Source: Eubacteriales bacterium (GTDB lineage Bacteria; Bacillota; Clostridia; Lachnospirales; Lachnospiraceae). Taken from it: a DNA stretch of 33,653 nt. The translations under genes were made by a program, and so were the position numbers. A model generated the notes under the pieces. It had not been told where the DNA came from. It saw nothing but the letters and a program-made list of their open reading frames with translations, and ran no database searches. Shown piece by piece: positions 8,501 through 25,698 of this stretch. The stretch is from the NCBI GenBank assembly GCA_030533235.1, contig JAUNJN010000026.1, positions 1 through 33,653 of the forward strand, in the 5' to 3' direction. Positions within the stretch are counted from its first letter, which is position 1, and every line of letters starts with the position of its first letter.

Positions 8501-9286
8501 TTAATCCATCTTCCCCTGACAAAAATCAAGGACATCCTCATACCGCATCGTTCCGCCAAATATATCAAGTGCACTCCCGATTGTAACATCCAGGCAATCC
8601 TTCCCGAGTGTTCTTAGCGTTTGTAAATCCTCAAAGGACGCAACCCCGCCTGCATAAGTCATCGGAAGCTTTCCCCATGCTCCAAGCAGCCGGACAAGCT
8701 CTGTCTCAATCCCTTGTGCCTTACCCTCTACATCCACTGCATGAATCAGATACTCATTGCAATAGGAGGCCAGTCTGTCAAGAGTCTCGTGACATACAAC
8801 AACATCCGTATATTTCTGCCAGCGATCTGTCACGATGTAATACATCCCATCCCGCTTTCTGCAGCTTAAATCAAGTACAAGCCGTTCCTTTCCAACTGCT
8901 TTTATGAGCTGATTTAAATTCTCATAATTGATTTTACCATCCCGAAATACATACGATGTCACGATAACGTGCGAAGCTCCCATATCAAGAAATCGTTTCG
9001 CATTGTCCGAATTTATGCCACCGCCAATCTGCAAGCCTCCCGGATATGCACGAAGTGCACGTTCGGCCTGCTCCACATCCGCCTCATAATACTCACTCTG
9101 CGGTGGATTTAACAGTATAATATGTCCTCCCGAAAGCCCACTGTCCCGATACATTTTTGCAAAAAAATCAGCGCCCTGCCCGGACACATAATTATCGGTT
9201 GCATAATCTGCCTCATCTCGCAGACTCCCTCCAACTATTTGTTTTACCGCACCGTTATGAATATCGATACATGGTCGAAAATGCAT
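8501..9286 (-). CDS. hisA: Eukaryotic-type HisA (HIS6-like) phosphoribosylformimino-AICAR ribotide isomerase
   Basis: The 261-residue TIM barrel matches the eukaryotic branch of HisA rather than the usual bacterial one. Diagnostic stretches are RPCIDIHNGAVKQIVGGS, LQIGGGIN, VIVTSYVF, LVLDLSCRKRDG, NEYLIHAVDVEGKAQGI, YAGGVASFEDLQ and IGSALDIFGG, which align by eye with yeast HIS6. The enzyme would isomerise ProFAR in histidine biosynthesis in the cytoplasm; catalytic aspartates near the N-terminus (CIDIH) and in the HAVDVEG segment are present. No other his gene is nearby. Instead it is first in a set with the GH9 cellulase, whose ATG lies 11 bases after this stop codon. AAGGAG stands eight bases before the ATG. 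Eukaryotic-type HisA is known in a few bacteria such as Fibrobacter and attributed to lateral transfer. Confidence 0.9.
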   Translation of the reverse strand: MHFRPCIDIHNGAVKQIVGGSLRDEADYATDNYVSGQGADFFAKMYRDSGLSGGHIILLNPPQSEYYEADVEQAERALRAYPGGLQIGGGINSDNAKRFLDMGASHVIVTSYVFRDGKINYENLNQLIKAVGKERLVLDLSCRKRDGMYYIVTDRWQKYTDVVVCHETLDRLASYCNEYLIHAVDVEGKAQGIETELVRLLGAWGKLPMTYAGGVASFEDLQTLRTLGKDCLDVTIGSALDIFGGTMRYEDVLDFCQGKMD

Positions 9287-9327
9287 ATCGTCTGCTCCTT
9301 TGCACGTTACGTCTAATCAGTAGACTG

Positions 9328-9356
9328 ATTGTACCATATTGAGTCTGCTTTTTCAA
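9328..9356 (-). promoter_or_regulatory. Promoter of the hisA-GH9-GtrA/YfhO set
   Basis: On the minus strand TTGAAA (9351-9356) is separated by exactly 17 bases from TACAAT (9328-9333), about 40 bases upstream of the hisA start. An inverted repeat AATCAG-TAGA-CTGATT at 9315-9330 overlaps the -10 box and the expected transcription start. Confidence 0.75.
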
Positions 9357-9368
9357 CAAATTTCCCAC

Positions 9369-9398
9369 TTTACGCATTGTTCCTCGCAGTGCTATAAT
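9369..9398 (+). promoter_or_regulatory. Probable promoter of the AAA+ gene
   Basis: TTTACG (9369-9374) and TATAAT (9393-9398) are spaced 18 bases apart, about 47 bases before the ATG. The -10 is perfect, the -35 is partial. It is divergent from the hisA promoter with little space between them. Confidence 0.55.
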
Positions 9399-9445
9399 AA
9401 TTTTCAAATCTTGTCCGAATCGGATGCGCAGAAAGGATATATATT

Positions 9446-10936
9446 ATGATTTCAAGCTTGAAACAGGAACTGAATGATTGCTATATGTACGGAGAAATAA
9501 TTACCCAGCAGGGCTTCGGACCAAAAACCGGCATTTCCATGAAGGATATGATCCGTTTTGATTTATTGCAGTACCTTGCATTTCTTTTGGATACCAAAAA
9601 CGGCTCCATGTATTCGGAAATCTCATTTATCCACGAATATTTAGGAGAATATTTTACATTAGATCGCTTAATTCGTTTTAAGGACGATCGCACCCGAACA
9701 CCGGATTACGTGCGCACGGTACCTCGTTCCATCACTTATTTCGCCGAAGCGGATCTTTCCGGTAAATCTGCCTACACGACAAAGGGATATTCCAAATCCC
9801 GTAATTTATATAACCTGTTCGTTTCGATGGGACAGGAATTTATCGTTGCAAACGGCATTGAGACGGCTGACGAAATCGACAATCTCACAATGTATACAAC
9901 GATGATTGAAAATTATTTGCGCAGTCACAAGCTGTATGATTCCTCACCGAAAGCGGGATCAATCAAGCCGAGCAGTTCAGGAAGTACGCCTTCCAAGCTA
10001 TCTGCTGCGGATAAGAAGACTACATCAAAACAAGCCGCCACGTCGGCAGCGCTTGCTGCCATGCGAGGCGAATTAAACAAAGAGTCCATCGGGGAACAGG
10101 AAGTCACGCTGGATGCACTTATGAACGAGTTAAACGATTTGACCGGACTTGAGGATGTCAAGAAAGACATCAAGAGTCTTGTAAATCTGTTAAAGATCAA
10201 GAAGCTTCGTGAAGAAAGAGGTATGAAACAGCCATCGGTTTCCTTGCATATGGTTTTTTCCGGCAATCCGGGTACGGGCAAGACGACGGTTGCAAGACTG
10301 CTTGCTAAAATATATGGCTGCCTTGGTGTTTTGGAGACCGGTCAGCTCGTGGAGGTGGACCGTTCAGGCCTTGTCGAAGGGTTCGTCGGTCAGACTGCAA
10401 CCAAAACAAAAGAGGTTGTCGAAAGCGCACTCGGAGGTGTTCTGTTTATCGATGAAGCCTATACACTCACCGCAAACAAGGACGGCAAGGACTTTGGGCA
10501 GGAGGCAGTCGACACATTGCTTAAGCTTATGGAAGACAACCGCGACAATCTGATTGTCATTGTTGCCGGCTATACGCAGCTGATGGAAAATTTTGTGAAT
10601 TCCAATCCGGGACTAAAATCCCGCTTTAACAAGTATATCCTTTTCAAGGATTATACCGGCGATCAGCTATTTGACATCTTTATGTCGATGTGCAAAAAAC
10701 AGGACTACGAACCAAATACACCGGGCAAAAAATATGTGAAGGAGTATTTTACCGAACGGGCCAAAAGCCATGATGAAAACTTTGCAAATGCACGAGAGGT
10801 ACGAAACTACTTAGAGCGTGCGATTGCGCGCCAGGCAAGCCGTATCGTCACAATCGATAACATAACCGATAAACAAATTCGAACCCTGACAAAAGCGGAT
10901 TTGGAGGAATCAATTGAGCCGTCTGCACAATCATAG
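9446..10936 (+). CDS. CbxX/SpoVK-type AAA+ ATPase with an N-terminal helical domain
   Basis: The protein has 496 residues. The C-terminal half (about 221-490) is a CbxX/CfqX-family AAA+ module: Walker A GNPGTGKTT (about 273-281), Walker B GGVLFIDEAYTL (about 330-341), sensor 1 VIVAGYT, the arginine-finger region NPGLKSRFNKYILF and sensor 2 NAREVRNYLERAIARQA. Relatives include the rubisco activase CbbX and the sporulation protein SpoVK. The first 165 residues are mostly helical and acidic, loosely like a TerB-type domain but not firmly assignable; a Ser/Lys-rich linker (170-200) joins the two. An AAAGGA site precedes the ATG. No obvious client gene is adjacent: the neighbours are divergent hisA and convergent GT2. 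Substrate unknown. Confidence 0.88.
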   Translation: MISSLKQELNDCYMYGEIITQQGFGPKTGISMKDMIRFDLLQYLAFLLDTKNGSMYSEISFIHEYLGEYFTLDRLIRFKDDRTRTPDYVRTVPRSITYFAEADLSGKSAYTTKGYSKSRNLYNLFVSMGQEFIVANGIETADEIDNLTMYTTMIENYLRSHKLYDSSPKAGSIKPSSSGSTPSKLSAADKKTTSKQAATSAALAAMRGELNKESIGEQEVTLDALMNELNDLTGLEDVKKDIKSLVNLLKIKKLREERGMKQPSVSLHMVFSGNPGTGKTTVARLLAKIYGCLGVLETGQLVEVDRSGLVEGFVGQTATKTKEVVESALGGVLFIDEAYTLTANKDGKDFGQEAVDTLLKLMEDNRDNLIVIVAGYTQLMENFVNSNPGLKSRFNKYILFKDYTGDQLFDIFMSMCKKQDYEPNTPGKKYVKEYFTERAKSHDENFANAREVRNYLERAIARQASRIVTIDNITDKQIRTLTKADLEESIEPSAQS

Positions 10937-10954
10937 TGCAAACGGCTCTTTGTT
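10916..10954. terminator. Shared terminator at convergent gene ends
   Basis: GAGCCGT...ACGGCTC with an inner GCAC/GTGC stem forms a hairpin that contains the stop codons of both the AAA+ gene (10934-10936) and the GT2 gene (10931-10933). The T-rich tail is better on the plus strand. The two coding regions overlap by six bases inside it. Confidence 0.7.
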
Positions 10955-12793
10955 TGTTGCAAAGTTTTGATTGTAATACGGGTCTCCGTTTTGAAGGTAA
11001 TCTGCGTGTGTCTTAAGCATCCGCATCGTTACCTCCTCCGACTGTGCTTCCATCCGCTTTTCGGGTGCGCCATGTATATGTCTGCACCAGCCGGCTCGCG
11101 CCACACTCACAACAATCTTTTGCTGTTCCCATATTTTTATGCCAAAATCCACCTCCGACAAACCCTCGGAAATATCCGTCCGAAAACCACCCAACGCATG
11201 AAACAAATTTTTTTTGACCATAAGACAGGCGGCAGATACTGCACTGTAATCACAATTCATTCGATTGTGCATCAGATATCCGTAAACACCCTTGCGGACT
11301 CCGCGATACACATCCATAAATGTACCGTCCCGTCGAATGACGATTCCGCTACTTACCGTCGCTCCGTTTTCCGCGTAAAGCATACCGCCTGCGACTCCGA
11401 TTTCGTCACGCATACAGCAGCCGATCATCTCACTGATTGCGGTAGACTCCATAATCTCAACATTTCCGTCGAGAAACAAAATATAATCTCCCTTTGCAAA
11501 GGATGCACCGTAGTTTCGTTTTCCGGCAAGTCCTTTTTTATCCCGACATATTACCACCCGCATATTTTTACGCGTCATTTCAAGCTTCCTATAATAAGTA
11601 AGCATCTCGTTGTCAACTTCTCCGTCAACAATTATGATTTCGAAATTACTGTATCTGGTCCGCTCAAACAATGGCATCAGACATTTTTCAAGTATCTCCG
11701 GATTACCACCGCTCGTCACCACTATGGAAAGCAATGGGTTTCCGGGCGTGTCATAAATGACATGATAGATTCCCTTTCTGTCTGTAAGACTAACCGTTGC
11801 ATAATACCCAAGTCTTTGGAGATGCTCGGTGAGTGCCTTTTTCCCTGCCGCATCCGATTGTTCCTTTTTTCGAAGATGCATATCTGTTATGCGTGCATGC
11901 AATCTCGTATGATACAATACTCTCGGGATATGCACAATCTTTTTATAGATCATGTCCCATTGCTCGCAGAAAAGCATTTCACAGCAGCGAAGTACAAAAT
12001 CATAATCACGCACCGCATCATATTCCTTCCGAAATCCACCGGCACGACGTGCGAGCTCACGCCTTACCACAAGGAAATTGCCCATGTAATTATAACAGCG
12101 TAATAAATCCATATTAAATCTTGTCTTAAATGCCGGATCCGAATATTTTGTTCCATCCTCCGACATCTTATCTTCATCCGAATAAAGAATCTCCGCCGGA
12201 TATTTATTGAGCTCGGCTACGATCTGATAAAGTGCGTCCTCTGTCAGCACATCATCGTGGTCAAGCAGTGCAATATAATCTCCTGTCGCCATTTCAAAAG
12301 CATGATTTGTATTATCACAAATCCCTCTGTTTTCGTCTAACAAAATATATCGTATCCGCTCGTCATTATCCGCATATTGATGAATTGTCTTTTCCGTTTC
12401 CCGACTGTAAAGTTGTTCGTAAACGCTCGGTTCGTCCGGTATATCCGTCCCTGCATCGACTGCCTGACTACCGTCAACAATGCATAATTCCCAGTTTGCA
12501 TAGGTCTGTTTTTGCACAGACTCAATCATGGCACGTAAAAAAAACTCCGGCGTCATATATACCGAAACGAGAATACTGATTTTAGGTGCATAAGCAAACT
12601 CGGTTTCCCGTTGACTGATTAACATCTCTTCATCCGCCTCATGTACTTCCTTGTACCAGCCGTTATAGGATAGTCCCGGTCCGCTCATCTTATACTTTAC
12701 CTTGGATACGACACCTTCAATTCCATTGAATTTTATGTAATTTAAGCCTTTTTTTATGCTGTCTGCATTGATTGCGCGAAGGTCAAATTTCAT
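10931..12793 (-). CDS. Two-domain family 2 glycosyltransferase
   Basis: The 620-residue protein has two GT2 (GT-A fold) domains. The first (about 75-290) shows ISILVSVYMTPEFFLRAMIESV, CIVDGSQ, DENRGICDNTNHAFEMATGDYIALLDHDD and an acidic SDEDKMSEDG; the second (about 355-590) shows LSIVVTSGGNPEILEKCLMPL, EIIIVDG, KKGLAGKRNYGASFAKGDYILFLDGNVEI. The second is slightly degenerate in its acidic motif (DGN instead of DxD), so one domain may be inactive or differ in donor. No membrane segments; the N-terminal 70 residues resemble the cap seen in rhamnan/teichoic-type transferases. Likely role: surface polysaccharide assembly. I chose ATG 12793 because GGAAG is correctly spaced before it; the in-frame GTG at 12814 has none. 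Confidence 0.9.
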   Translation of the reverse strand: MKFDLRAINADSIKKGLNYIKFNGIEGVVSKVKYKMSGPGLSYNGWYKEVHEADEEMLISQRETEFAYAPKISILVSVYMTPEFFLRAMIESVQKQTYANWELCIVDGSQAVDAGTDIPDEPSVYEQLYSRETEKTIHQYADNDERIRYILLDENRGICDNTNHAFEMATGDYIALLDHDDVLTEDALYQIVAELNKYPAEILYSDEDKMSEDGTKYSDPAFKTRFNMDLLRCYNYMGNFLVVRRELARRAGGFRKEYDAVRDYDFVLRCCEMLFCEQWDMIYKKIVHIPRVLYHTRLHARITDMHLRKKEQSDAAGKKALTEHLQRLGYYATVSLTDRKGIYHVIYDTPGNPLLSIVVTSGGNPEILEKCLMPLFERTRYSNFEIIIVDGEVDNEMLTYYRKLEMTRKNMRVVICRDKKGLAGKRNYGASFAKGDYILFLDGNVEIMESTAISEMIGCCMRDEIGVAGGMLYAENGATVSSGIVIRRDGTFMDVYRGVRKGVYGYLMHNRMNCDYSAVSAACLMVKKNLFHALGGFRTDISEGLSEVDFGIKIWEQQKIVVSVARAGWCRHIHGAPEKRMEAQSEEVTMRMLKTHADYLQNGDPYYNQNFATNKEPFAL

Positions 12794-12831
12794 AAATCTT
12801 CCTTTCATTGCCACAAACGTTTTTCGATTCC

Positions 12832-12840
12832 ATTATAACA
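12832..12840 (-). promoter_or_regulatory. Extended -10 promoter of the GT2 gene
   Basis: On the minus strand TGTTATAAT is a perfect extended -10 element, 38 bases upstream of the GT2 ATG. The expected -35 region (about 12855-12860) is weak, which suits a promoter helped by an activator; direct repeats lie further upstream at 12900-12933. Confidence 0.6.
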
Positions 12841-12899
12841 AATCCTTCCGAAAATGGGTAGATACTTTTCCATCCGGGGCATTTCGTCAAACCTCATCA

Positions 12900-12933
12900 G
12901 CAAACTGTGCCAGATTTTTTGCAAAGTGTGCCA
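12900..12933. repeat. Pair of 13-bp direct repeats with 21-bp period
   Basis: GCAAACTGTGCCA (12900-12912) and GCAAAGTGTGCCA (12921-12933) match at 12 of 13 positions and start exactly 21 bp apart, two helical turns. They sit between the divergent GT2 promoter and the plus-strand promoter at 12950-12978. The geometry is that of tandem sites for a dimeric regulator such as a LytTR-domain protein; the assignment is inference. Confidence 0.6.
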
Positions 12934-12949
12934 AACCCCGAATATCCTA

Positions 12950-12978
12950 TTGATTCTATCTGTTTATTTTACTATAAT
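12950..12978 (+). promoter_or_regulatory. Promoter of the putative small RNA
   Basis: TTGATT (12950-12955) and TATAAT (12973-12978) are separated by exactly 17 bases. The predicted start, about seven bases after the -10, falls at 12985, which is the first base of a 14-nt inverted repeat. No plus-strand coding region follows. Confidence 0.65.
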
Positions 12979-12984
12979 TCAGAC

Positions 12985-13118
12985 ATTGTATACGTCATAC
13001 CAACAACATAACAATACAATACATCATCAATTCAATCTTCCAAATGTTTAAAAAACATATTAAACCATACCTGATGACGAATACAATAAGGGCCATCCGA
13101 ACGGATGACCCTTTTTTT
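12985..13118 (+). ncRNA. Putative small RNA, about 130 nt
   Basis: The predicted transcript starts at 12985 from a good promoter and ends at an intrinsic terminator. Its first 14 bases (ATTGTATACGTCAT, 12985-12998) pair with ATGACGAATACAAT (13074-13087), 13 of 14 pairs, and the second arm abuts the terminator stem at 13088, so the two helices could stack. The enclosed 75-nt region is nearly free of G (two G residues) and mostly unpaired apart from a six-pair hairpin ATGTTT/AAACAT (13044-13058). No ORF of credible size lies in it. This fits a regulatory RNA with an exposed A/C/U-rich region. Alternatives are a small mobile element bounded by the inverted repeat, or a Rho-loading sequence. I do not recognise a known family. 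Confidence 0.5.
13088..13118 (+). terminator. Intrinsic terminator (small RNA; possibly also the Mur ligase gene)
   Basis: AAGGGCCATCCG pairs with CGGATGACCCTT (one C-A mismatch) and is followed on the plus strand by seven T residues. On the minus strand the tail is weaker (TTATTGT), so it may only partly stop transcription from the Mur ligase gene. Confidence 0.75.
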
Positions 13119-13149
13119 CGTCACAAGTTTCTTAACAGACTCTTTCCTG

Positions 13150-14685
13150 TTATATTTCCGTGCACGCAACCTCGCTCGCACTGTCATATGCTTCCATATA
13201 CATTCGCACATATTCAATATCGGACTTGCAATTTACAACATGATCCTTGTAATGAATCTTCGTTCCGCTTCCATGCCCGGTCACAAGTAACACTGTTTTG
13301 CCCGACACTTCGGAAATCGCCGTCCGTATTGCCTCTCCGCGATCTTCAATAACCTCATACGGACAACCTGCCCGATCAAGATGAACACCGATTTCACTGC
13401 AAATCTTTTCAAACGGCTCATCTCCCGGATCAATCGCTGTCAAATATGCTTTCTTCGCATACTGCCCGACAATCGTTCCAAGCTCCTGTCTGCGGTTTAG
13501 CGCCTTGCCTCCGACGCACCCAAACACCGAAGCAATCGCATAGTCCGGATATTCCTCCCGGATAGATGCATACAGACGTTCAAAGCTAAGCTTGTTATGT
13601 GCATAGTCAACTACCGTTATCAAGTTTTTATCCCGACTCACATACATTTCCATACGTCCCTTTGATCGTGCACGATACAACCCGGAATGCATATACTTTT
13701 TCGGAATATCCAACAGCAGGGACGCTGCGATAACTGCCAAAGCATTTTCAACGTTAAACAAGCCCGGCATTGTAAGTCTGAATTCCTCGTCAAAATCTTT
13801 GGTACGAACCATAAACACCGTCTCATCACCATCCTTGCGGATAGCATACCCGTAAACATCTGCCGTGGCATCCTTCGTACTAAAGGTCAATACCTTCTCA
13901 CAGGCCCTTGCGCAGCTCTCTATACGCGCATAATAATCTGCATCCTTATTGATAACCGCCTGTTTGCATTGCTCAAACATCAAAAGCTTCGAAGAAAAAT
14001 AATCCTCGAAATCCGGATGCTCTACCGGACTGATATGATCTTCCGAAATATTTAAGAACATACCCACATCAAAACGAACGTCATCCACACGATGGTACTT
14101 TAATGCCTGAGCAGAAACCTCCATCTGGAAATATTTAATATGACTGTTAACTGCATTGCGAAAATGTGCCCAAAGAGCAACCGCCTCCGGCGTTGTAAGT
14201 CTGGATTCCTCACAAATTACTCCGTCATACGTATCAATGGATGACAAAATCGCACTTTCAGATTCTCCGGTTGCCATCATATAATCGTCTATGATGGCCT
14301 TCATATAATATGCAGACGTTGACTTGCCCTTGGTTCCTCCGATGCCGATAAGCGTAAGAGCCTCCTCCGGATGGTTATTATACCAAACCGCAAGCGGCGG
14401 CATGGCAAGACGGATATCCTTTACAAGCATATACGGAATCTTTGTTTCTGTGTCGTAAGGCACCTCGCTCACATAGCAGATTGCACCTTTTTTTATCGCC
14501 TCATCCAAATATTGCTTTTTGAATGCTGCTCCCTTACATATAAAGAGTGTTCCCGGTCTCACTGCTTTTGAATCATATGTCAGCAGAGAAACCGGCTCTT
14601 CATTTGCATCACAGCCCACTGCCTCGACCAACATATTTTTATTTTGTAATAATTGTCTGTATTGTGCCAATGTATATTTTTGCAT
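13150..14685 (-). CDS. MurE-like Mur ligase (UDP-MurNAc-peptide synthetase family)
   Basis: The 511-residue protein has the three Mur ligase domains: an N-terminal UDP-substrate domain (LTYDSKAVRPGTLFICKG), a central ATPase domain with P-loop GIGGTKGKST (about 114-123) and the metal/phosphate residues in LNISEDHISPVEHPDFEDYF, and a C-terminal domain (VVDYAHNKLSFERLYASIRE, FGCVGGKALNRRQELG). These place it nearest MurE. The GTKGK form of the P-loop is also seen in streptococcal MurE. The usual substrate-reading DNPR (diaminopimelate) or DDPNP-like (lysine) motif is replaced by AIDPGDEPF, so the amino acid added cannot be read off. No cell-wall (mra/dcw) genes are adjacent, so it may be a second, specialised copy. 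ATG 14685 has GGGAG eight bases upstream; the earlier in-frame ATG at 14718 does not. Confidence 0.87.
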   Translation of the reverse strand: MQKYTLAQYRQLLQNKNMLVEAVGCDANEEPVSLLTYDSKAVRPGTLFICKGAAFKKQYLDEAIKKGAICYVSEVPYDTETKIPYMLVKDIRLAMPPLAVWYNNHPEEALTLIGIGGTKGKSTSAYYMKAIIDDYMMATGESESAILSSIDTYDGVICEESRLTTPEAVALWAHFRNAVNSHIKYFQMEVSAQALKYHRVDDVRFDVGMFLNISEDHISPVEHPDFEDYFSSKLLMFEQCKQAVINKDADYYARIESCARACEKVLTFSTKDATADVYGYAIRKDGDETVFMVRTKDFDEEFRLTMPGLFNVENALAVIAASLLLDIPKKYMHSGLYRARSKGRMEMYVSRDKNLITVVDYAHNKLSFERLYASIREEYPDYAIASVFGCVGGKALNRRQELGTIVGQYAKKAYLTAIDPGDEPFEKICSEIGVHLDRAGCPYEVIEDRGEAIRTAISEVSGKTVLLVTGHGSGTKIHYKDHVVNCKSDIEYVRMYMEAYDSASEVACTEI

Positions 14686-14795
14686 CTGTCTATCTCCCAT
14701 GAAAATCCGTACGTACATTGCGAAAATGCTTTTCTTTTAGTATTGACGTAACAACGGAATACATACATTTATTATAATGTGAATTTTCTGAAATC

Positions 14796-14824
14796 ATTAT
14801 AACGATACGATGTGTCTGCGTCAA
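14796..14824 (-). promoter_or_regulatory. Promoter of the Mur ligase gene
   Basis: On the minus strand TTGACG (14819-14824) and TATAAT (14796-14801) are 17 bases apart. An inverted repeat GTCTGC-12-GCAGAC (14814-14837) straddles the -35 box and could be an operator. Confidence 0.75.
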
Positions 14825-14877
14825 CTTTTATGCAGACGTCAAATATCATATCCGTAAATTGATTCACAATTTTCCCG

Positions 14878-17283
14878 TCATGGTTTTACGACATTTGAAA
14901 TATCTTCCATGAATTTTATTAGTTTTTCATTTGTCGCCAAATTTAAATCCACCTTCGAAGGAATGATATCCTGCAATTTTTTACTGTTTGAATATTGATA
15001 GGTGTCATATAAAATTCCAATATCGAGATTTTCTGCCTGCCACCATGCAAGCAGCGCCGCTTTTAACACAGGCGTCTCAAACATAACCTTAACGGAAGAC
15101 TGAAGGCCGTAAGAATACGGACTTTTTCCGCTTTTGTACACACGCACCGATGCCACAATATCCGCACTTGCCGATGATGTTGCGACAATCAAATCATAAT
15201 ATCCCTCTTCACAAAGGAATGCCTCGTAGTCCATATCATAATAACTAAAATCCTCGGAATCAAGCTCAAACGTAAAGGTCTTTTGCTCACCCGGCACAAG
15301 ATACAACTTATGAAATTTTTTTAATTCTTTTACCGGCTTGGCGACCGAGGATTCCACGTCGGAAATATACAACTGGACAACCTGTGCTCCCGGATAAGAA
15401 CCGGTATTTGTTATTGTCCCGATAAGTGTAACCGTATCCTCAAATTTTTTCCGATTGACCGTAACATTTGAAATCTCAAAGCTTGTATAGGACAAACCAT
15501 ATCCAAACGGGTACAATGGTTTCACACATTTTTTATCATAATATCGGTATCCGACATAGATTCCCTCCCCATAAGTAACCTGCGCGCCTTCCCCCGGAAA
15601 GTTTACATAAGTCGGAGTGTCCGTGTCATGCTTCGGAAACGTAACCGGAAGCTTTCCGCTCGGATTCTCAACCGCACAAATGAGATTTGCAAGTGCACGA
15701 GGTCCCTGCATACCCGGAAGAAAAATACAAAAGATTCCATCAATATCCGGTTCATATTCCGTAATATCAACCGGACCGCATGTATTTAATATCAAACCGA
15801 TCCGGTATCCTGCTTTTTTCTTATTTTGAATCAGCGACTCCAAAAGCTTACGGTCCGGTGCCGAAAGCAACAAATCTGTGCGGTCGTTGCCCTCCATTCC
15901 GACAAGTGATGCAACAACGAGCACGGTATCACACGTCTCGGCAAGTGAAAGCTCCTGCCCCGAGCACATGCATACCTGCTTGGGTCCAAGCAACGACGAC
16001 AATTCCTTCAAAAAGCTTGTATTCCGGCATGTAACAACGCCTGCACTTCCCGTTCCGCATGTAAGTATCCTTTCACATCCGGTTCCCATAACCGCCACGC
16101 GACGTTTATCCTCAGGCAACACCGGGAAGATTTTGTTTTGATTTTTCAGGAGTACAATTCCTTCCTTTGCAGCCTCATACGCAGCTACATCGCCCACACG
16201 GAAAAACTCCTCCGGAGAAAACCTGTCTGTTTTATTTTGCTCATATACCTGCTTTTTATCCTCCAGCCAATCCATTACCTTCAATATATGATTCACCGCA
16301 AGGTCGAGCTCTGACTCTGCCAGCGCTCCCCGACGAACCGCCTCAATTACCGGTTGCGGGTTCACGGGTCCCGGCATATTCAAATCATTTCCGCCATGAA
16401 TCGCCTGTACCTGATTGTATACTGCCCCCCAATCCGACATAACAAGTCCCTCAAAGCCCCATTCATCCCGAAGCACATCCGTAAGCAGCCATGCATTCTC
16501 CGTGCAGGCAACGCCGTTTATTTTGTTGTATGCACTCATGACGGACTGAACGCCGGCCCTGACGCAGGCACAAAAGCCCGGAAGATATATTTCATACAAC
16601 GCACGTTTTGTTATAATTTCATTAATGCCAATCCGGTTTGTTTCCTGATTATTTGCTGCAAAATGCTTGACATTTGCTATCACCGGATAAGATTGCACAC
16701 CTTTTACAAGCTCCGGTGCGAGCGTTGACACAACACGTGGATCCTCGGAGTAACCCTCGAATAATCTTCCGTTTTTGGGATCTCGATGGATATTGACATT
16801 GGGTGTTCCAAGCAGATAATCCACATGATAAGCGACCGCCTCCATTCCGAGCGCCTCACCGACTTTTCTAACCGTTTCCGGCGAAAAGGTTGCGCCAAGC
16901 AAAATTCCCGGCGGATAACAGCCCGGTGCAAGCTCCGGTTGCCCGGTCCACGCATCCAGCATTTTTTTAACCAGTACATAGAGAGGATAAAGCTCTCCGT
17001 CAAGCTGCTCCGGTTTATAGAATTTTTTTCGAACCTCGGCCAGCTGTTCCGTATTATATATATTGTTCTCCCCTTCAGGCTCTGTAAATCGCGTTGCAAA
17101 GTCGCTAAACAGCTGTTCAAAATTTATTCCGGTTCCGCCGTCCAGGAATTGCAAACGTGGTATATGATGCTTCGACATTTCTGCCGAACCAAAAATAGAG
17201 GAGCCGCCAACTAAGGTTGCCTTCTCCTCTAATGTCATCTTGGCTATTTTATTTTGATACCTCTTGTCCAAGTCTGTCAACAT
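14878..17283 (-). CDS. GH3 beta-glucosidase, probably cytoplasmic
   Basis: The 801-residue protein is a complete family 3 glycoside hydrolase: (beta/alpha)8 domain with LEEKATLVGG, FLDGGTGI, NVNIHRDPKNGRLFEGYSEDP, VKHFAANNQE (Lys206-His207) and nucleophile Asp284 in VMSDWGAVYN; alpha/beta sandwich with KEGIVLLKNQ; and a fibronectin-III-like domain (PGAQVVQLYISD... KELKKFHKLYLVPGE). About 100 further residues (about 700-801) form a C-terminal extension I do not recognise. No signal peptide is present, so it would act on imported cellobiose or other beta-glucosides. GGGAGG precedes the ATG. Its first 35 bases overlap the end of the upstream EAL gene, implying translational coupling. Confidence 0.94.
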   Translation of the reverse strand: MLTDLDKRYQNKIAKMTLEEKATLVGGSSIFGSAEMSKHHIPRLQFLDGGTGINFEQLFSDFATRFTEPEGENNIYNTEQLAEVRKKFYKPEQLDGELYPLYVLVKKMLDAWTGQPELAPGCYPPGILLGATFSPETVRKVGEALGMEAVAYHVDYLLGTPNVNIHRDPKNGRLFEGYSEDPRVVSTLAPELVKGVQSYPVIANVKHFAANNQETNRIGINEIITKRALYEIYLPGFCACVRAGVQSVMSAYNKINGVACTENAWLLTDVLRDEWGFEGLVMSDWGAVYNQVQAIHGGNDLNMPGPVNPQPVIEAVRRGALAESELDLAVNHILKVMDWLEDKKQVYEQNKTDRFSPEEFFRVGDVAAYEAAKEGIVLLKNQNKIFPVLPEDKRRVAVMGTGCERILTCGTGSAGVVTCRNTSFLKELSSLLGPKQVCMCSGQELSLAETCDTVLVVASLVGMEGNDRTDLLLSAPDRKLLESLIQNKKKAGYRIGLILNTCGPVDITEYEPDIDGIFCIFLPGMQGPRALANLICAVENPSGKLPVTFPKHDTDTPTYVNFPGEGAQVTYGEGIYVGYRYYDKKCVKPLYPFGYGLSYTSFEISNVTVNRKKFEDTVTLIGTITNTGSYPGAQVVQLYISDVESSVAKPVKELKKFHKLYLVPGEQKTFTFELDSEDFSYYDMDYEAFLCEEGYYDLIVATSSASADIVASVRVYKSGKSPYSYGLQSSVKVMFETPVLKAALLAWWQAENLDIGILYDTYQYSNSKKLQDIIPSKVDLNLATNEKLIKFMEDISNVVKP

Positions 17284-19198
17284 CCCATGCCTCCCTTAAA
17301 AGCTTTAAGAATGTTTTCTCCGGTACAGGCTTTGAATAATAATATCCTTGTAAAAATCCACAGCCGAGTACCCCCAGCATCTGCGCCTGTTCAGCCGTCT
17401 CTACGCCCTCGGCAACGATGTGGATATCCAAATCCTTAATCATGGCAATCGTATGACGAAGTGCCCGCATTGCCCGATCGTTTTTCATCGCCGACCATAC
17501 CATACTTTTATCAATTTTAATAATATGGAACGGATAGCTGATGACATTGGAAATATTGGAATAGCCCGTGCCATAATCATCCAAAGAAAACGTCACGCCA
17601 TTTGCCAAAAGCGGATCAATATTACGACGCAGAATTTCTTCCGAAGATACCGTTGCTGACTCCGTAATCTCAAGATTAATATATTCACACGGAAGCTTAT
17701 ACTCATCCATAATCGCAAACAGCTTCTCATGCAAATCTGCTTCCATACACTGTACAGGTGACAGATTTACTTCAATATACTCGATTCCCTTCTCCCACAG
17801 GCGTTCCCTTGAGAGCATACTGCAAACGCTGCGGAACACATATTCACCAAGCTCAAAAATCGTACCGTTCTTCTCTGCAATCGGAATGAATTCATCCGGT
17901 CCGACGAACCCAAGCTCTTCGTCTATGAGTCGTACAAGTGCCTCTGCCGAACGGTATTTCTTTTTCGCAACTGAGTAAATCGGCTGATAATACACCTCAA
18001 ACTTATGATCTGCAAGCGCCCGCTTCATAAGCTGCGCAATTGCATGCTCTCTTCGTAACTTTGCAAGTACTTCCTCGCTGCTTCGAAGAACAACTCCATC
18101 TTCCTTTTCTCCGACCTTTTCTATCTCATAATCCACCATATCCAAGATATCCTCAAGCTTATCGACATCCTTTGGATAATCAAGTACAAACATAGCCGCA
18201 GATATTACAATTTGCATTCCCTGATATTTAACTGCACTGTTAAATTCCTCATGAATAAACCGAATTGCATTTTCAATGCTTTCATCGCGATCATTTCCCT
18301 TTGCACAGGCAATATAAATTCCATCCGCCATCCAGCACAAGTCAAGCTTTGTAAGATTTTCTGACAGAAAATCCACAATTTGTTTATGAAATGCCACACT
18401 ATTTTCTACGCCAAGAGTCTCACGGACAACCTGAAATCCATTAAACCGGATACCTAAAAGCTTCATCGGCTCTTTATCCTCCACGGCACAGGATATTATT
18501 TTCATAAATCCCTGACGATTATAAATACCAAGCTCGGTTTTCTCAAAATTTTTCGTATTTTCCAACGCTTGATACATTAGCCATACAGAAACTGAAACCG
18601 CAAACTGTAAAAGCAAAATTTTTGGAAATGAAACCTGTAAAAACAGGCTTGCCAAAAGACCAACGGAATAGCTCGTAACAGACAATATCTGCGTCTTCGT
18701 AAAGCGTCTTCGATTGCGCTGCGTATAAAAAAGTGTCGCAAACACATAACAAAATGCTACCGCATAGGAAATATGAAACAGTTTGCCGTGAACATATGCA
18801 CCATCGGCATCAACATAAAATATCCATTTTGTAAGCGGTGTTGTTACAAGCAAAGCCGCATACACCACATAAGGAATAACAATCGCAATCCGCCGACGCC
18901 TTGTCCACCATGTCGGCCGTACGAGCATAGATGAAATATATTTGAAATACAGAAATGAGAGACTTGAAAACACAAGCAGATAAATCATATTTGCCGCATA
19001 TGTTACCCATACAGGCACCGTAATGACCATTAAAAGCACTGTGACAATATCCATCATCCCGGACAACAAGGCACCCCAAAGGATCGCATAAAACACCTTT
19101 GTCCGATAATTCATTATGTTTTTTCGGAGCAAAAAGCTTATCATTGTAAAAGCAGATATTACGACCGCCGCAACATCATAATGAATTACATATGACAT
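17249..19198 (-). CDS. Membrane EAL-domain protein (c-di-GMP phosphodiesterase) with degenerate GGDEF
   Basis: The 649-residue protein starts with seven or so hydrophobic helices (about 1-205), then a GGDEF-type fold that has lost its signature (about 215-380), then an EAL domain (about 400-640). EAL residues are intact: EALVRL (Glu419), VNLSPVQ, LEITES, DDYGTGYS (540-547), IKIDKS, VAEGVE and LQGYYYSKP. It should therefore hydrolyse c-di-GMP, with the membrane part and dead GGDEF domain sensing or regulating. A ribosome site GAGGGA precedes the ATG. The gene overlaps the GH3 gene by 35 bases, tying c-di-GMP breakdown to beta-glucoside use in one transcript. Confidence 0.93.
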   Translation of the reverse strand: MSYVIHYDVAAVVISAFTMISFLLRKNIMNYRTKVFYAILWGALLSGMMDIVTVLLMVITVPVWVTYAANMIYLLVFSSLSFLYFKYISSMLVRPTWWTRRRRIAIVIPYVVYAALLVTTPLTKWIFYVDADGAYVHGKLFHISYAVAFCYVFATLFYTQRNRRRFTKTQILSVTSYSVGLLASLFLQVSFPKILLLQFAVSVSVWLMYQALENTKNFEKTELGIYNRQGFMKIISCAVEDKEPMKLLGIRFNGFQVVRETLGVENSVAFHKQIVDFLSENLTKLDLCWMADGIYIACAKGNDRDESIENAIRFIHEEFNSAVKYQGMQIVISAAMFVLDYPKDVDKLEDILDMVDYEIEKVGEKEDGVVLRSSEEVLAKLRREHAIAQLMKRALADHKFEVYYQPIYSVAKKKYRSAEALVRLIDEELGFVGPDEFIPIAEKNGTIFELGEYVFRSVCSMLSRERLWEKGIEYIEVNLSPVQCMEADLHEKLFAIMDEYKLPCEYINLEITESATVSSEEILRRNIDPLLANGVTFSLDDYGTGYSNISNVISYPFHIIKIDKSMVWSAMKNDRAMRALRHTIAMIKDLDIHIVAEGVETAEQAQMLGVLGCGFLQGYYYSKPVPEKTFLKLLREAWDVDRLGQEVSK

Positions 19199-20863: not shown

Positions 20864-22624
20864 TTACAGCATGATTTCCATCTCATGCCACTGTTCATTT
20901 CCCCATGTAGAGTCCGCATATCCATGGTCAACAAATCCCATTTTCTCATACATGGAAACCTTCTCATCCAAACATGTCAGTATAAGGCTCTTTCTATTGT
21001 TGGCCTGCTCTCTTTGTATATATCGATTTACAATTGTACGGGCAAGGCCGAGCCCCCGATACTCCGGCAGCACATCCAAGCCAAGCAGCATCACATGCTT
21101 ACCGGATGTTTTGTGCAAACTGATATTCAGGAAGAAATCATCTCGAAAGCTTACGTCATCCGTGGCAATCCCATTGAAAAATCCTGCTATTTTTCCGGTA
21201 TGGCGATCTTCTGCCACCAGAAAAAGCTCCGGTGCGAGCTCAACACGTTCCTTCACTCGCTCCGGCGCGCACGCCTCATGCGGAGGAAAACAGATCTGCT
21301 CAATCTCCGCCAGAAGCCCAGCTTCCTCTATGCGTGCCTCACGAAGATAAAATCGTTCTTCCATCATACGATCGAGAAACTCCGCAACTGTCGTCTCGTA
21401 AGTATGCAGCAGTGCCTGAATGGTTTCCACCTTATATTTTTCCTTGCAATACTCGACCTTAAGCCGAAAATATTCGCCCTCTTTAAATACCATAATTGAT
21501 ACATCATCATCCATACCATGAAGCGGTAGCGCCTCCCACGGACAATCCATTCCGTCAAGCTGTACGTGACTGAAAAAATCGCCCTGATAGAGCACTGACA
21601 AATCAATGGACAAGCCGTATTCCTGCATCAGCCTTCCAATCCCGTAATTTCCCTTTTTTATTGCACCATATACACGGTCTGTTGCCTGTTCCAAATAACC
21701 GTAAATCGATTTGTCTGCATCATAGGTAATGTAAATCGGCAGCATGCGCACAAACATTCCGACTGAATTTTTCATACGCGCATCAAACCTACCATGATTT
21801 CCCGTATATACGATAGATTCTTTCTTTCCGACAAACCGAGCTACGGCACATGCAAAGGCACCGATGAAAAATGCGCCCACCTTACCGTCCGTTAACATGC
21901 TTACTTTTGTATGGGTAATTTTACGATTCATATCATATCCCATAGTCCCATCACCCGGCGTGTCATCTGCGGATAAATCTGCAGGAATTGTCATACGCGG
22001 ACACTTGTCTCCGAAAAGTGTTTTGTAGTACTGTCCTGCCACAGCAAAATTGTCTGTCTTTGCGTACATTTCATCAAACGCACAATAATCAAGCATCGTT
22101 ACCTGTTCAGGTTCAAGCGGCTGACCAAGGTACGCCTGATTGATTTCCCGAAACCAGACTGCACAGGATGATCCATCATAAATTAAATGATGGAAATCCG
22201 AAAGGATACAATAGGACGTTTCCGTTTCGCAAATCTCCACCCGAAACAAGCAATCTGATTTCACATCAAATGGCTTAGCAAAAGCGTTCTTTCGGTCACA
22301 AAGTGCATCAGCCGAAATCTTAAGCACCGGAATTTCCATATCATCATACTGCTTATTTGTATCGACCCAATATGGCAGTCCATCCTGTTCTACAATCCTG
22401 CATCGAAGCGCGACGTGATTGTTAAGGGCTTTTCGAATTGCCTGACAAAGGCGATCCAAATCCACATGCTCCTTAGGAAGCATACAAGCACTCGGCAAAT
22501 TATATGCCAGACTCTTTGGATGCTCCTTGCAGAAAAAATACAATCCGATCTGACTCTGATTTAGCAAATATCGATTTTGTTTTTTTTCGATACAATCGGT
22601 CAATAACTGATTTAAATCATTCAT
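20864..22624 (-). CDS. Fusion of an NRPS-type condensation domain and a GNAT N-acetyltransferase
   Basis: The 586-residue protein begins with a condensation-family domain (about 15-425) carrying an intact HHLIYDG (145-151), a match to the HHxxxDG catalytic motif, preceded by LNQSQIGLYF as in the C1 motif and followed by an NSVGMFVRMLPIYI segment. Residues about 428-586 are a GNAT domain with acetyl-CoA motif LDVLPEYRGLGLA (about 516-528) and a CPELFLVAED-like, arylalkylamine-acetyltransferase-type N-terminal part (here LAPELFLVAED). There is no adenylation, carrier or thioesterase domain, and none is encoded nearby. The protein presumably condenses an acyl or aminoacyl thioester with an amine and acetylates a product or substrate; the molecule is unknown. 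AGGAG lies six bases before the ATG. A terminator separates it from pgi upstream. Confidence 0.85.
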   Translation of the reverse strand: MNDLNQLLTDCIEKKQNRYLLNQSQIGLYFFCKEHPKSLAYNLPSACMLPKEHVDLDRLCQAIRKALNNHVALRCRIVEQDGLPYWVDTNKQYDDMEIPVLKISADALCDRKNAFAKPFDVKSDCLFRVEICETETSYCILSDFHHLIYDGSSCAVWFREINQAYLGQPLEPEQVTMLDYCAFDEMYAKTDNFAVAGQYYKTLFGDKCPRMTIPADLSADDTPGDGTMGYDMNRKITHTKVSMLTDGKVGAFFIGAFACAVARFVGKKESIVYTGNHGRFDARMKNSVGMFVRMLPIYITYDADKSIYGYLEQATDRVYGAIKKGNYGIGRLMQEYGLSIDLSVLYQGDFFSHVQLDGMDCPWEALPLHGMDDDVSIMVFKEGEYFRLKVEYCKEKYKVETIQALLHTYETTVAEFLDRMMEERFYLREARIEEAGLLAEIEQICFPPHEACAPERVKERVELAPELFLVAEDRHTGKIAGFFNGIATDDVSFRDDFFLNISLHKTSGKHVMLLGLDVLPEYRGLGLARTIVNRYIQREQANNRKSLILTCLDEKVSMYEKMGFVDHGYADSTWGNEQWHEMEIML

Positions 22625-24393: not shown

Positions 24394-25566
24394 CTATACA
24401 ACTCTCTCCGTGCATATATCGATAAACGGATATTTCTTTCGTTCCTCTCTTTTATTTGTACTTTCAATATATCCCCTTTGCCAATCCTCCGGTGTATAAT
24501 AGTCCCGGATATTCTTTCTGAATTGATTTAGAATTGTCTCACATTTTATTTTATAATCTTTTTCCGGAAGGATACATATAACCGTATCTTCGTTAATCAT
24601 TGCCATGGTATCATCATCCGATAAATTCTCTGAAACAATCGTCCTTATCCTGTTGATGATTTCGTCCCCTTTTTCATCTCCGTATTCTCTTCTGTATGCC
24701 CGTAATGCCTTATAATTCTCAATTTTAAACAAGACAACTTTACAGTCTCCAACTCCACTATCTCTATATTTGTCTGCGTTCTTTTTTGAATTCGCTCTTT
24801 TGATGACATCAAGTGCCTTCGGATAGATTTCTTTAAAGTCCTCATTCGGAGTTCTGAGGAAAAATCCCTGTCCATAATGTACCCCAAGCTTTATCAACGT
24901 CTTTAATTCCTCTTCCTTTTCAATTCCCTCTGCGATTACACAAATACCTGTCAGATTCGAGAACTCCACCATAGACTTTACCATGGCATATTTTATTGTG
25001 TCCTTATGTATATCCCGAATCAGCTCCATATCAAGCTTTAAATAATGAGGTACGATATCACAAATCAGATTCAAACCGGAATAGCAGGATCCTACGTCAT
25101 CAATCGCTATTTTATATCCCTGCTTTTTATAATGCCTGATAGTTTCCTTAAACCCTCTTACATCCTCTACCGCACTTCTTTCCGTCACTTCAAAAACGAC
25201 GTTGTCCATGCTTAATTCGTATTTATTAAGATATTGTATCGTGAATCCGACTTGAAATTTCTTGTCATGAATAACCATCGGATTTACATTTATAAAAAGC
25301 TTTCTGTTATCCTTTCGACAAAATAATTCACAATACTTTTCCAATATCTTGTTACGGCATAACTGCTCCAAATCCCATACCTTTCCATATAGCCCTGCAA
25401 GCTTAAACAGTTCTTCCGTATTACTGATCTTTTTAGGCTCCACGACTCTGCTCAATGCCTCATATCCAATTATTCTTCCATCCACCAAGGATACGATAGG
25501 CTGAAAAAACGGTTTGATTCTCTGTCCTTCTAAAATGTCAATAAAATCTTCTTTTAATAATTTCAT
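24394..25566 (-). CDS. Cytoplasmic EAL-domain protein with C-terminal degenerate GGDEF
   Basis: The 390-residue protein has no membrane segment. An EAL domain (about 5-250) carries YEALSR (Glu36), INVNP, FEVTER (Glu126), AIDDVGSCYS (156-163), YLKLD (Lys177), IAEGIE (Glu213) and GQGFFL, so metal and catalytic residues appear kept although the DDFGTG loop reads DDVGSC. A degenerate GGDEF-like domain follows (about 265-370), with INEDTVICIL in place of the GGDEF signature. The EAL-then-GGDEF order is the reverse of the common arrangement. It probably degrades or senses c-di-GMP. The ATG follows GAGGAAAAA. It is a single gene, with no clear promoter match in the 130 bases upstream. Confidence 0.88.
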   Translation of the reverse strand: MKLLKEDFIDILEGQRIKPFFQPIVSLVDGRIIGYEALSRVVEPKKISNTEELFKLAGLYGKVWDLEQLCRNKILEKYCELFCRKDNRKLFINVNPMVIHDKKFQVGFTIQYLNKYELSMDNVVFEVTERSAVEDVRGFKETIRHYKKQGYKIAIDDVGSCYSGLNLICDIVPHYLKLDMELIRDIHKDTIKYAMVKSMVEFSNLTGICVIAEGIEKEEELKTLIKLGVHYGQGFFLRTPNEDFKEIYPKALDVIKRANSKKNADKYRDSGVGDCKVVLFKIENYKALRAYRREYGDEKGDEIINRIRTIVSENLSDDDTMAMINEDTVICILPEKDYKIKCETILNQFRKNIRDYYTPEDWQRGYIESTNKREERKKYPFIDICTERVV

Positions 25567-25698
25567 TTTTTCCTCTTCCTTCTACAATACTACATTGCTA
25601 TTTCCAATCTTTTACGTCCACTTTAATATGTATATGTAAACACTTCTATCCAGTTGATGTAAAATGTAGGTAAAATAGGAAAAAACATCTTCTATAAT

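Follow-up and report, generated by a model that had tools for sequence, protein, structure and literature searches.

The locus and its predicted RNA

The window, that is, the whole stretch of 33,653 nucleotides that was analysed, is contig 33 of genome G000 (67 contigs, 87% complete). Judged from its sequence, the plus-strand interval 12985-13118 very probably encodes a small regulatory RNA (sRNA) of about 134 nt. A -35 box TTGATT (12950-12955), recognised by direct reading and by a promoter scan, is followed after a 17-nt spacer by a -10 box TATAAT (12973-12978) and, after 6 nt, by the first arm of a closing stem, P1 (ATTGTATACGTCAT, 12985-12998), which starts at the predicted first nucleotide and cannot be extended 5'-wards. 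The second arm (ATGACGAATACAAT, 13074-13087) pairs with the first at 13 of 14 positions, with one A.A mismatch, and directly abuts an intrinsic terminator with a T7 tail (AAGGGCCATCCGAACGGATGACCCTTTTTTT, 13088-13118). The 75-nt loop between the arms contains two G residues and carries motif A (CAAUCUUCCA, 13033-13042), motif B (AAACCAUACC, 13062-13071) and, between these, a small hairpin P2 (AUGUUU/AAACAU, 13044-13058), which appears weakly in minimum-energy folds and near which other hairpins occur in relatives. All of these elements are on the plus strand, and direct reading placed the promoter, the start-anchored arm, the G-poor loop, the second arm and the terminator exactly where an earlier note on this DNA had put them. 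Both neighbouring genes lie on the minus strand. The divergent one encodes a GT2-family glycosyltransferase (10931-12814; PF00535, E 1.8e-38), and its ORF starts 170 nt from the sRNA start; the convergent one encodes a Mur-ligase-like protein (13150-14718; PF08245 and PF02875).

The combined elements were compared with what chance would provide. The fold of the whole sRNA has an energy of -25.9 kcal/mol (z -4.85), and none of 200 shuffled sequences folded to an energy as low. Two 14-mers pairing at 13 or more of 14 positions (G.U allowed) at the fixed offset of the arms were found at 5 of the 67,006 positions that the two strands of the window offer; when any offset of 60-130 was accepted, 182 positions qualified. 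Segments of 75 nt with at most two G residues numbered 50 of 33,579 on the plus strand and 0 of 33,579 on the minus strand, and they fell into two regions, one of which was the sRNA loop. The second G-poor stretch (25517-25629, plus strand) covers the start and upstream region of a minus-strand gene that looks EAL-domain-like, and no sRNA-like layout was found in it on reading. Promoter-like sites are common in the region, with 29 found against 17.7 expected in a scan of 9000-17500; therefore, the promoter match alone proves nothing.

The terminator hairpin can also be read on the minus strand, where its T run is weak, and it may therefore also serve the convergent Mur-ligase gene. Together with the abundance of promoter-like sites, this raises the question of whether the locus consists only of a bidirectional Mur-ligase terminator to which a promoter and a repeat were added by chance, with no RNA gene at all. 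Such an arrangement is highly improbable, since the terminator stem differs in sequence while the arms, the promoter spacing and motif B remain conserved, and the same layout is found at other loci in 12 genomes. There is little doubt that an RNA gene exists at this locus. The inverted ends also suggested a MITE or another mobile element; this reading was dropped because the sequence is present in a single copy and its ends coincide with the promoter and the terminator.

Members of the family in the genus

A DNA search over 37 genomes of the genus, G000 included, returned one relative, G031, with only 28 matched bases, because a contig break falls inside the loop of the G031 copy. Contig 64 of this genome ends with the 5' half of the sRNA beside a GT2 gene, and the 3' half stands at the start of contig 6; these ends presumably adjoin each other in the genome. 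Alignment revealed that a -35 box (TTGAAA, at the matching place), the 17-nt spacer, TATAAT and the following 6 nt were kept. The first arm carries three changes; AAACCATACC is kept as well, and the second arm is unchanged. The G031 arms pair at 12 of 14 positions, including one G.U pair, and there is therefore one new break and no double change between G000 and G031. The terminator has a different stem sequence, still folds and has T6 at the same place. The elements kept in G031 are those that an sRNA gene needs. In G031, genes that look like those of a response regulator, a kinase and an ABC transporter separate the sRNA from the Mur ligase gene.

No related locus was found when the Mur-ligase-like protein was used as the query. 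This protein looks like a second copy, the other one in G000 being encoded on contig 32 and 34% identical. It had matches in 35 of the 36 other genomes of the genus; the only close match was in G031 (74%), and the best matches outside G031 were 30-34% identical.

A covariance model built from G000 and G031 (R1) pointed to two more copies, in G004 (E 0.09) and G003 (E 0.84). E-values of this size say little over 37 genomes; what convinced was the intergenic position and the full layout of both copies, which also share CAATCTTCCA and AACCATACC with the window. The other four of the six non-self matches with E up to 1 (G016, G030, G011 and G026) were rejected, because inspection by eye placed them inside genes or showed no such layout. 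A motif pattern gave 70 matches in 35 of the 37 genomes. Seven of these were kept for shared sequence (G000, G003, G004, G020, G021, G022 and G036), G020, G021, G022 and G036 being new, and the other 63 were taken as chance. A model of eight sequences (R3) then added G035 (E 9.0e-11), G002 (1.7e-4), G019 (0.030), G025 (0.067), G018 (0.091) and G032 (0.18). R3 produced 13 matches at E up to 1, seven of them in its training set, and all were kept after inspection of the promoter, arms and terminator; it misses G031 because that copy is split. In total, the sRNA was found in 14 of the 37 genomes (about a third), with one match in each. When the count was restricted to the 18 genomes with completeness of at least 90% and contamination of at most 5%, R3 detected it in 9.

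Other searches were less specific. A promoter-plus-arm pattern allowing three mismatches matched 34 of the 37 genus genomes, about the control level, and without mismatches it matched only G000 and G031. Candidate L036 (E 0.64) was rejected by eye, and the matches listed in viral scans were taken as chance. An exact pattern of the loop core matched none of the 397 genomes of a family sample in which this genus is represented by G000 and G027 only. The shortened core of the window copy does not fit that pattern either, and this negative result cannot exclude diverged relatives.

It was also considered whether the window copy is itself a member. A profile of the 12 complete relatives gave no match to it at default filters, and with the filters off the copy came sixth in the list with an E-value of 4. 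Motif A followed by motif B matched once in the window and in none of 100 shuffled sequences. The tie of the window copy to the family rests on the R1 matches, the presence of both motifs in order, the identical layout and the shared GT2 neighbourhood. On these grounds, membership of the window copy is considered quite probable.

In G018 and G019, the sRNA is flanked by a TrkH gene on one side and, divergently, by a GT2 gene on the other; the same arrangement was found in G002 and G025, where TrkH was recognised by eye. The GT2 assignment was made by Pfam for the window, G018 and G019 and by a BLAST-type match for G002 and G025. In the window and G031, too, the divergent neighbour of the sRNA is a GT2 gene. 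In G003, G004, G020, G021, G022, G035 and G036, it is divergent from an ORF of 489-525 codons, which is of the Wzy_C type by Pfam in G004 and G022, Wzy_C-like by eye in G003 and G036, and known by length alone in G020, G021 and G035. Overall, a long divergent ORF (at least 424 codons) starts 24-236 nt away in 12 of 13 members, the exception being G032, in which the divergent ORF has 68 codons and lies at 292 nt.

This recurrent position on the opposite strand from a long ORF, which is GT2 or Wzy_C wherever it was typed, would be expected if the sRNA controlled the divergent envelope gene through leader pairing or promoter interference. However, the predicted duplexes between the sRNA and the leader of the divergent gene had energies below those of all 100 shuffles in only 1 of 13 members, and the loop is unchanged although the neighbouring genes are of two different kinds. 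Control of the divergent gene is therefore regarded as improbable.

Conservation of the start, the closing stem and the loop

In all 12 complete relatives, as in the window, 6 nt separate a TANNNT box from the drawn start of the stem, and such a box is found at the equal stem offset in G031 as well. The stem begins 7 nt after the -10 box, give or take a base. P1 cannot be drawn further 5' in 7 of the 13 complete members, the window included; it could gain one 5' pair in G022, G035, G002, G025 and G018, and up to four in G019 if G.U pairs are allowed. A -35 box with TTG at 17 nt is present in 9 of the 12 relatives and missing in G002, G019 and G025. Since the stem starts at or about one base from the predicted first nucleotide in most members, a link between 5' pairing and stability can be tested in this family.

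Covariation in P1 was measured on alignment A8, which holds the 12 relatives and leaves out the window and G031; alignments A1, A5 and A6 misplace P1 and were excluded from the counts. In A8, 93.3% of the P1 cells are paired. Changes on both sides were found in 4 of the 9 P1 pairs, a number reached by 31 of 500 shuffles. Ten cells with double changes were counted against 3.5 in the shuffles, none of 500 reaching ten. The covariation score was 0.305 against 0.168, a value again reached by none of 500 shuffles, and slid structures scored lower. Further pair types in P1 were no more numerous than in the shuffles (481 of 500 reached the observed number). Because the members are related, the cells with double changes are not independent events; three to five separate stem sequences can be distinguished by eye. 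Examples of the stems in relatives are GUCAUAUGG/CCAUAUGAC, GUCAUAUGA/UCAUAUGAC and GUUAUAAGG/CCUUAUAAC. The stems of G018 (UCAUAUAAAC/GUUUAUAUGA) and G032 (GUACAGA/UCUGUAC) are misaligned in A8 and entered only a descriptive pair count, in which the arms were picked for pairing; the A8 test is the actual test. The RNA gene, both of its ends and its closing stem thus withstood the check that the earlier note had proposed, namely conservation and compensatory change in relatives, and an sRNA read by hand from a start-anchored stem can survive comparative testing.

Two motifs of the loop are conserved. One is AUUCUUAUAUCAAUCUU, of which the window retains only CAAUCUUCCA, and the other is AACCAUA. 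The 17-nt core ATTCTTATATCAATCTT is exact in 11 of the 12 relatives and has one mismatch in G025; motif A of the window, which is unpaired, corresponds to the 3' part of this core plus CCA. AACCATA is present in all 12 relatives and in the window and G031, that is, in 14 of 14 members, and CAGT directly after the core is invariant in the 12 relatives. Their loops contain 2-5 G residues in 51-67 nt. Neither the core nor AACCAUA contains a G, and the folds leave both largely single-stranded, although a hairpin takes in the CCA of motif A in G003 and G004. The idea of an exposed G-free stretch is thus supported for the most part, although the conserved CAGU behind the relatives' core has a G.

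All 13 complete members, which range with the family from 105 to 134 nt in length, had fold z-scores of -4.9 to -8.0, with none of 100 shuffles as low. The order of -10 box, 6-nt gap, first arm of P1, a loop that is poor in G and holds the core and AACCAUA, second arm and terminator was found in 13 of 13, with the limits that the core is shortened in the window, the T run is weak in G032 (TGGTTTGT) and P1 is drawable further 5' in 6 of 13. The G032 copy (L346, 57-134, minus strand) additionally contains a partial second core, ATCATTCTTAT, directly before the true core, which resembles a local seed duplication.

The locus had been described as free of ORFs, which is literally wrong: three rule-based ORFs of 61-102 aa overlap the sRNA (12854-13051 and 13044-13352 on the plus strand, 13032-13217 on the minus strand). 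The RNA could accordingly be viewed as a small mRNA for a short peptide. However, the 102-aa frame passes through the terminator, the loop keeps no start codon across the 12 relatives, and the changes in P1 are compensatory. The start of the frame at 13044, the sole frame of the three examined in this way, has no counterpart in the alignment of the 12 relatives. A peptide-coding role is thus scarcely probable at all.

Kinship, upstream repeat and proposed action

No Rfam 15 family matched the window at the gathering cut-off. When E-values up to 5 were accepted, the loci of eight of the 14 members (G000, G002, G018, G019, G022, G025, G032 and G035) gave no match to the sRNA on its own strand; on the opposite strand, STnc490 overlaps the G032 copy with 26.2 bits against a cut-off of 56. 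In 6S RNA and S. aureus RNAIII, the ends of the RNA pair and close the molecule. The present sRNA resembles them in that its 5' end is paired from about nucleotide 1 with a 3'-proximal arm, but it differs in having no Rfam match, no long double helix with a central bubble and a length of only 105-134 nt.

The csRNAs of streptococci, which depend on CiaR, are described in PMC3091779 as having a conserved unpaired stretch and possible anti-SD and CAU elements. They share with the present sRNA that they are short Gram-positive intergenic sRNAs placed between a direct-repeat promoter and a terminator and that they contain a conserved unpaired stretch. UCUUCC and CAU lie within the conserved motifs described here and might be counterparts of the csRNA elements, but the target search in start regions (see below) yielded no target for them. 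In contrast, several csRNAs occur per genome, whereas the present sRNA is found in one copy, and here the 5' end pairs with the bases before the terminator and encloses the conserved stretch. The CiaR repeat TTTAAG-N5-TTTAAG is absent from 12816-12985, and for this reason the present sRNA was not filed under the csRNAs. It is regarded here as a new family within a known class, the intergenic sRNAs. Among the papers listed in literature searches, none dealt with conserved sRNAs of Lachnospiraceae or described this RNA, which may be included among the thousands of predicted microbiome RNAs in the supplementary tables of PMC8040213.

Upstream of the -35 box lies a tandem repeat on which the earlier note was silent, seen by direct reading and in a genus pattern search. 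Its two copies of GCAAASTGTGCCA (12900-12912 and 12921-12933, plus strand) have a 21-bp period and probably form an activator site. Similar repeats with the same period are present in G031, and the gap between the repeat and the -35 box is 16 nt in both genomes. Of the 37 genus genomes, only G000 and G031 contain the exact pattern TGTGCCA-N14-TGTGCCA, and none of the other 12 members has TGTGCCA within the 120 nt that precede the sRNA. In the family sample, the repeat-plus-promoter pattern occurred in 1 of 397 genomes, G000. Among 36 contig stretches with this pattern, only L251, which is G031's own contig, was member-like. Three Clostridia contigs (L246, L252 and L279) carry similar TGTGCCA pairs before TTGACA-type promoters of protein genes.

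Small RNA genes controlled by LytTR regulators (VirR/VR-RNA and AgrA/RNAIII) have a direct repeat with a period of about 21 bp at the promoter. The repeat of the window is also direct, has a 21-bp period and lies upstream of the -35 box, but it departs from the LytTR consensus. G000 encodes five LytTR proteins, and the heptamer pair (up to three mismatches) was not found in any of eight LytTR loci of G000 and G031. In the lineage of the window, the sRNA is probably switched on by a putative regulator that would bind both repeat copies from the same side of the DNA helix.

Taken together, the sequence data make it fairly probable that this is the gene of a stand-alone, stable, trans-acting base-pairing sRNA, present in one copy per genome in part of a Lachnospiraceae genus. 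With its first nucleotides paired, the RNA would have a 5' end shut to RppH and RNase J; in PMC3997798, B. subtilis RppH is described as requiring at least two unpaired 5' nucleotides. The second arm beside the terminator would close the 3' side and the terminator would shut the 3' end, so that the RNA should be stable owing to the protection of both ends. We infer that the loop stretch acts by base pairing. It would present CAAUCUU(Y)CA and AACCAUA as seeds for trans pairing with mRNAs, the surroundings of ribosome-binding sites being the most likely place. There, UCUUYC could pair with GRAAGA and CAU with AUG, in the manner suggested for csRNAs (PMC3091779).

Potential targets of the core were sought in 670 start regions of G019 and 673 of G022 (about 28% of the two genomes), and no excess over 12 shuffled seeds was found. 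With the core only, 15 sites reached a score of at least 20 in G019, against a shuffled mean of 29.0, and 21 in G022, against 19.0. Because neither this search nor the comparison with the divergent genes supports particular targets, a protein partner is the main rival explanation: the RNA would be real, the invariant loop would be a protein site, and the molecule would act as a sponge or scaffold. The lack of enrichment in the target search agrees with it. So does the core, which 11 of 12 relatives have in identical form, in contrast to the variable P1 and hairpins; at 17 invariant nucleotides, it is long for a seed, exceeding what a seed usually needs, and a protein partner would fit as well. 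However, the core is reduced to its 3' part in the window, a loss that would scarcely be tolerated in a strict protein site, and no known RNA family was matched in Rfam. Binding of a protein as the function of the RNA is therefore considered unlikely, and trans-acting base pairing is preferred.

A broader form of the base-pairing reading may be proposed tentatively, as a possibility that is more doubtful than probable. The sRNA might be a genus-specific master regulator of the envelope, self-closed from nucleotide 1, with a fixed bipartite G-free seed of 17 plus 7 nt, located at different loci nearly always divergent beside polysaccharide genes (GT2 or Wzy_C-type), and transcribed from its own switchable promoter with lineage-specific activator sites. 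Since the sRNA offers defined ends, covariation and a fixed loop sequence, its targets should be findable by few experiments.

Elsewhere in the window, positions 20864-22624 of the minus strand encode a single protein in which a condensation domain and a GNAT acetyltransferase domain are combined.
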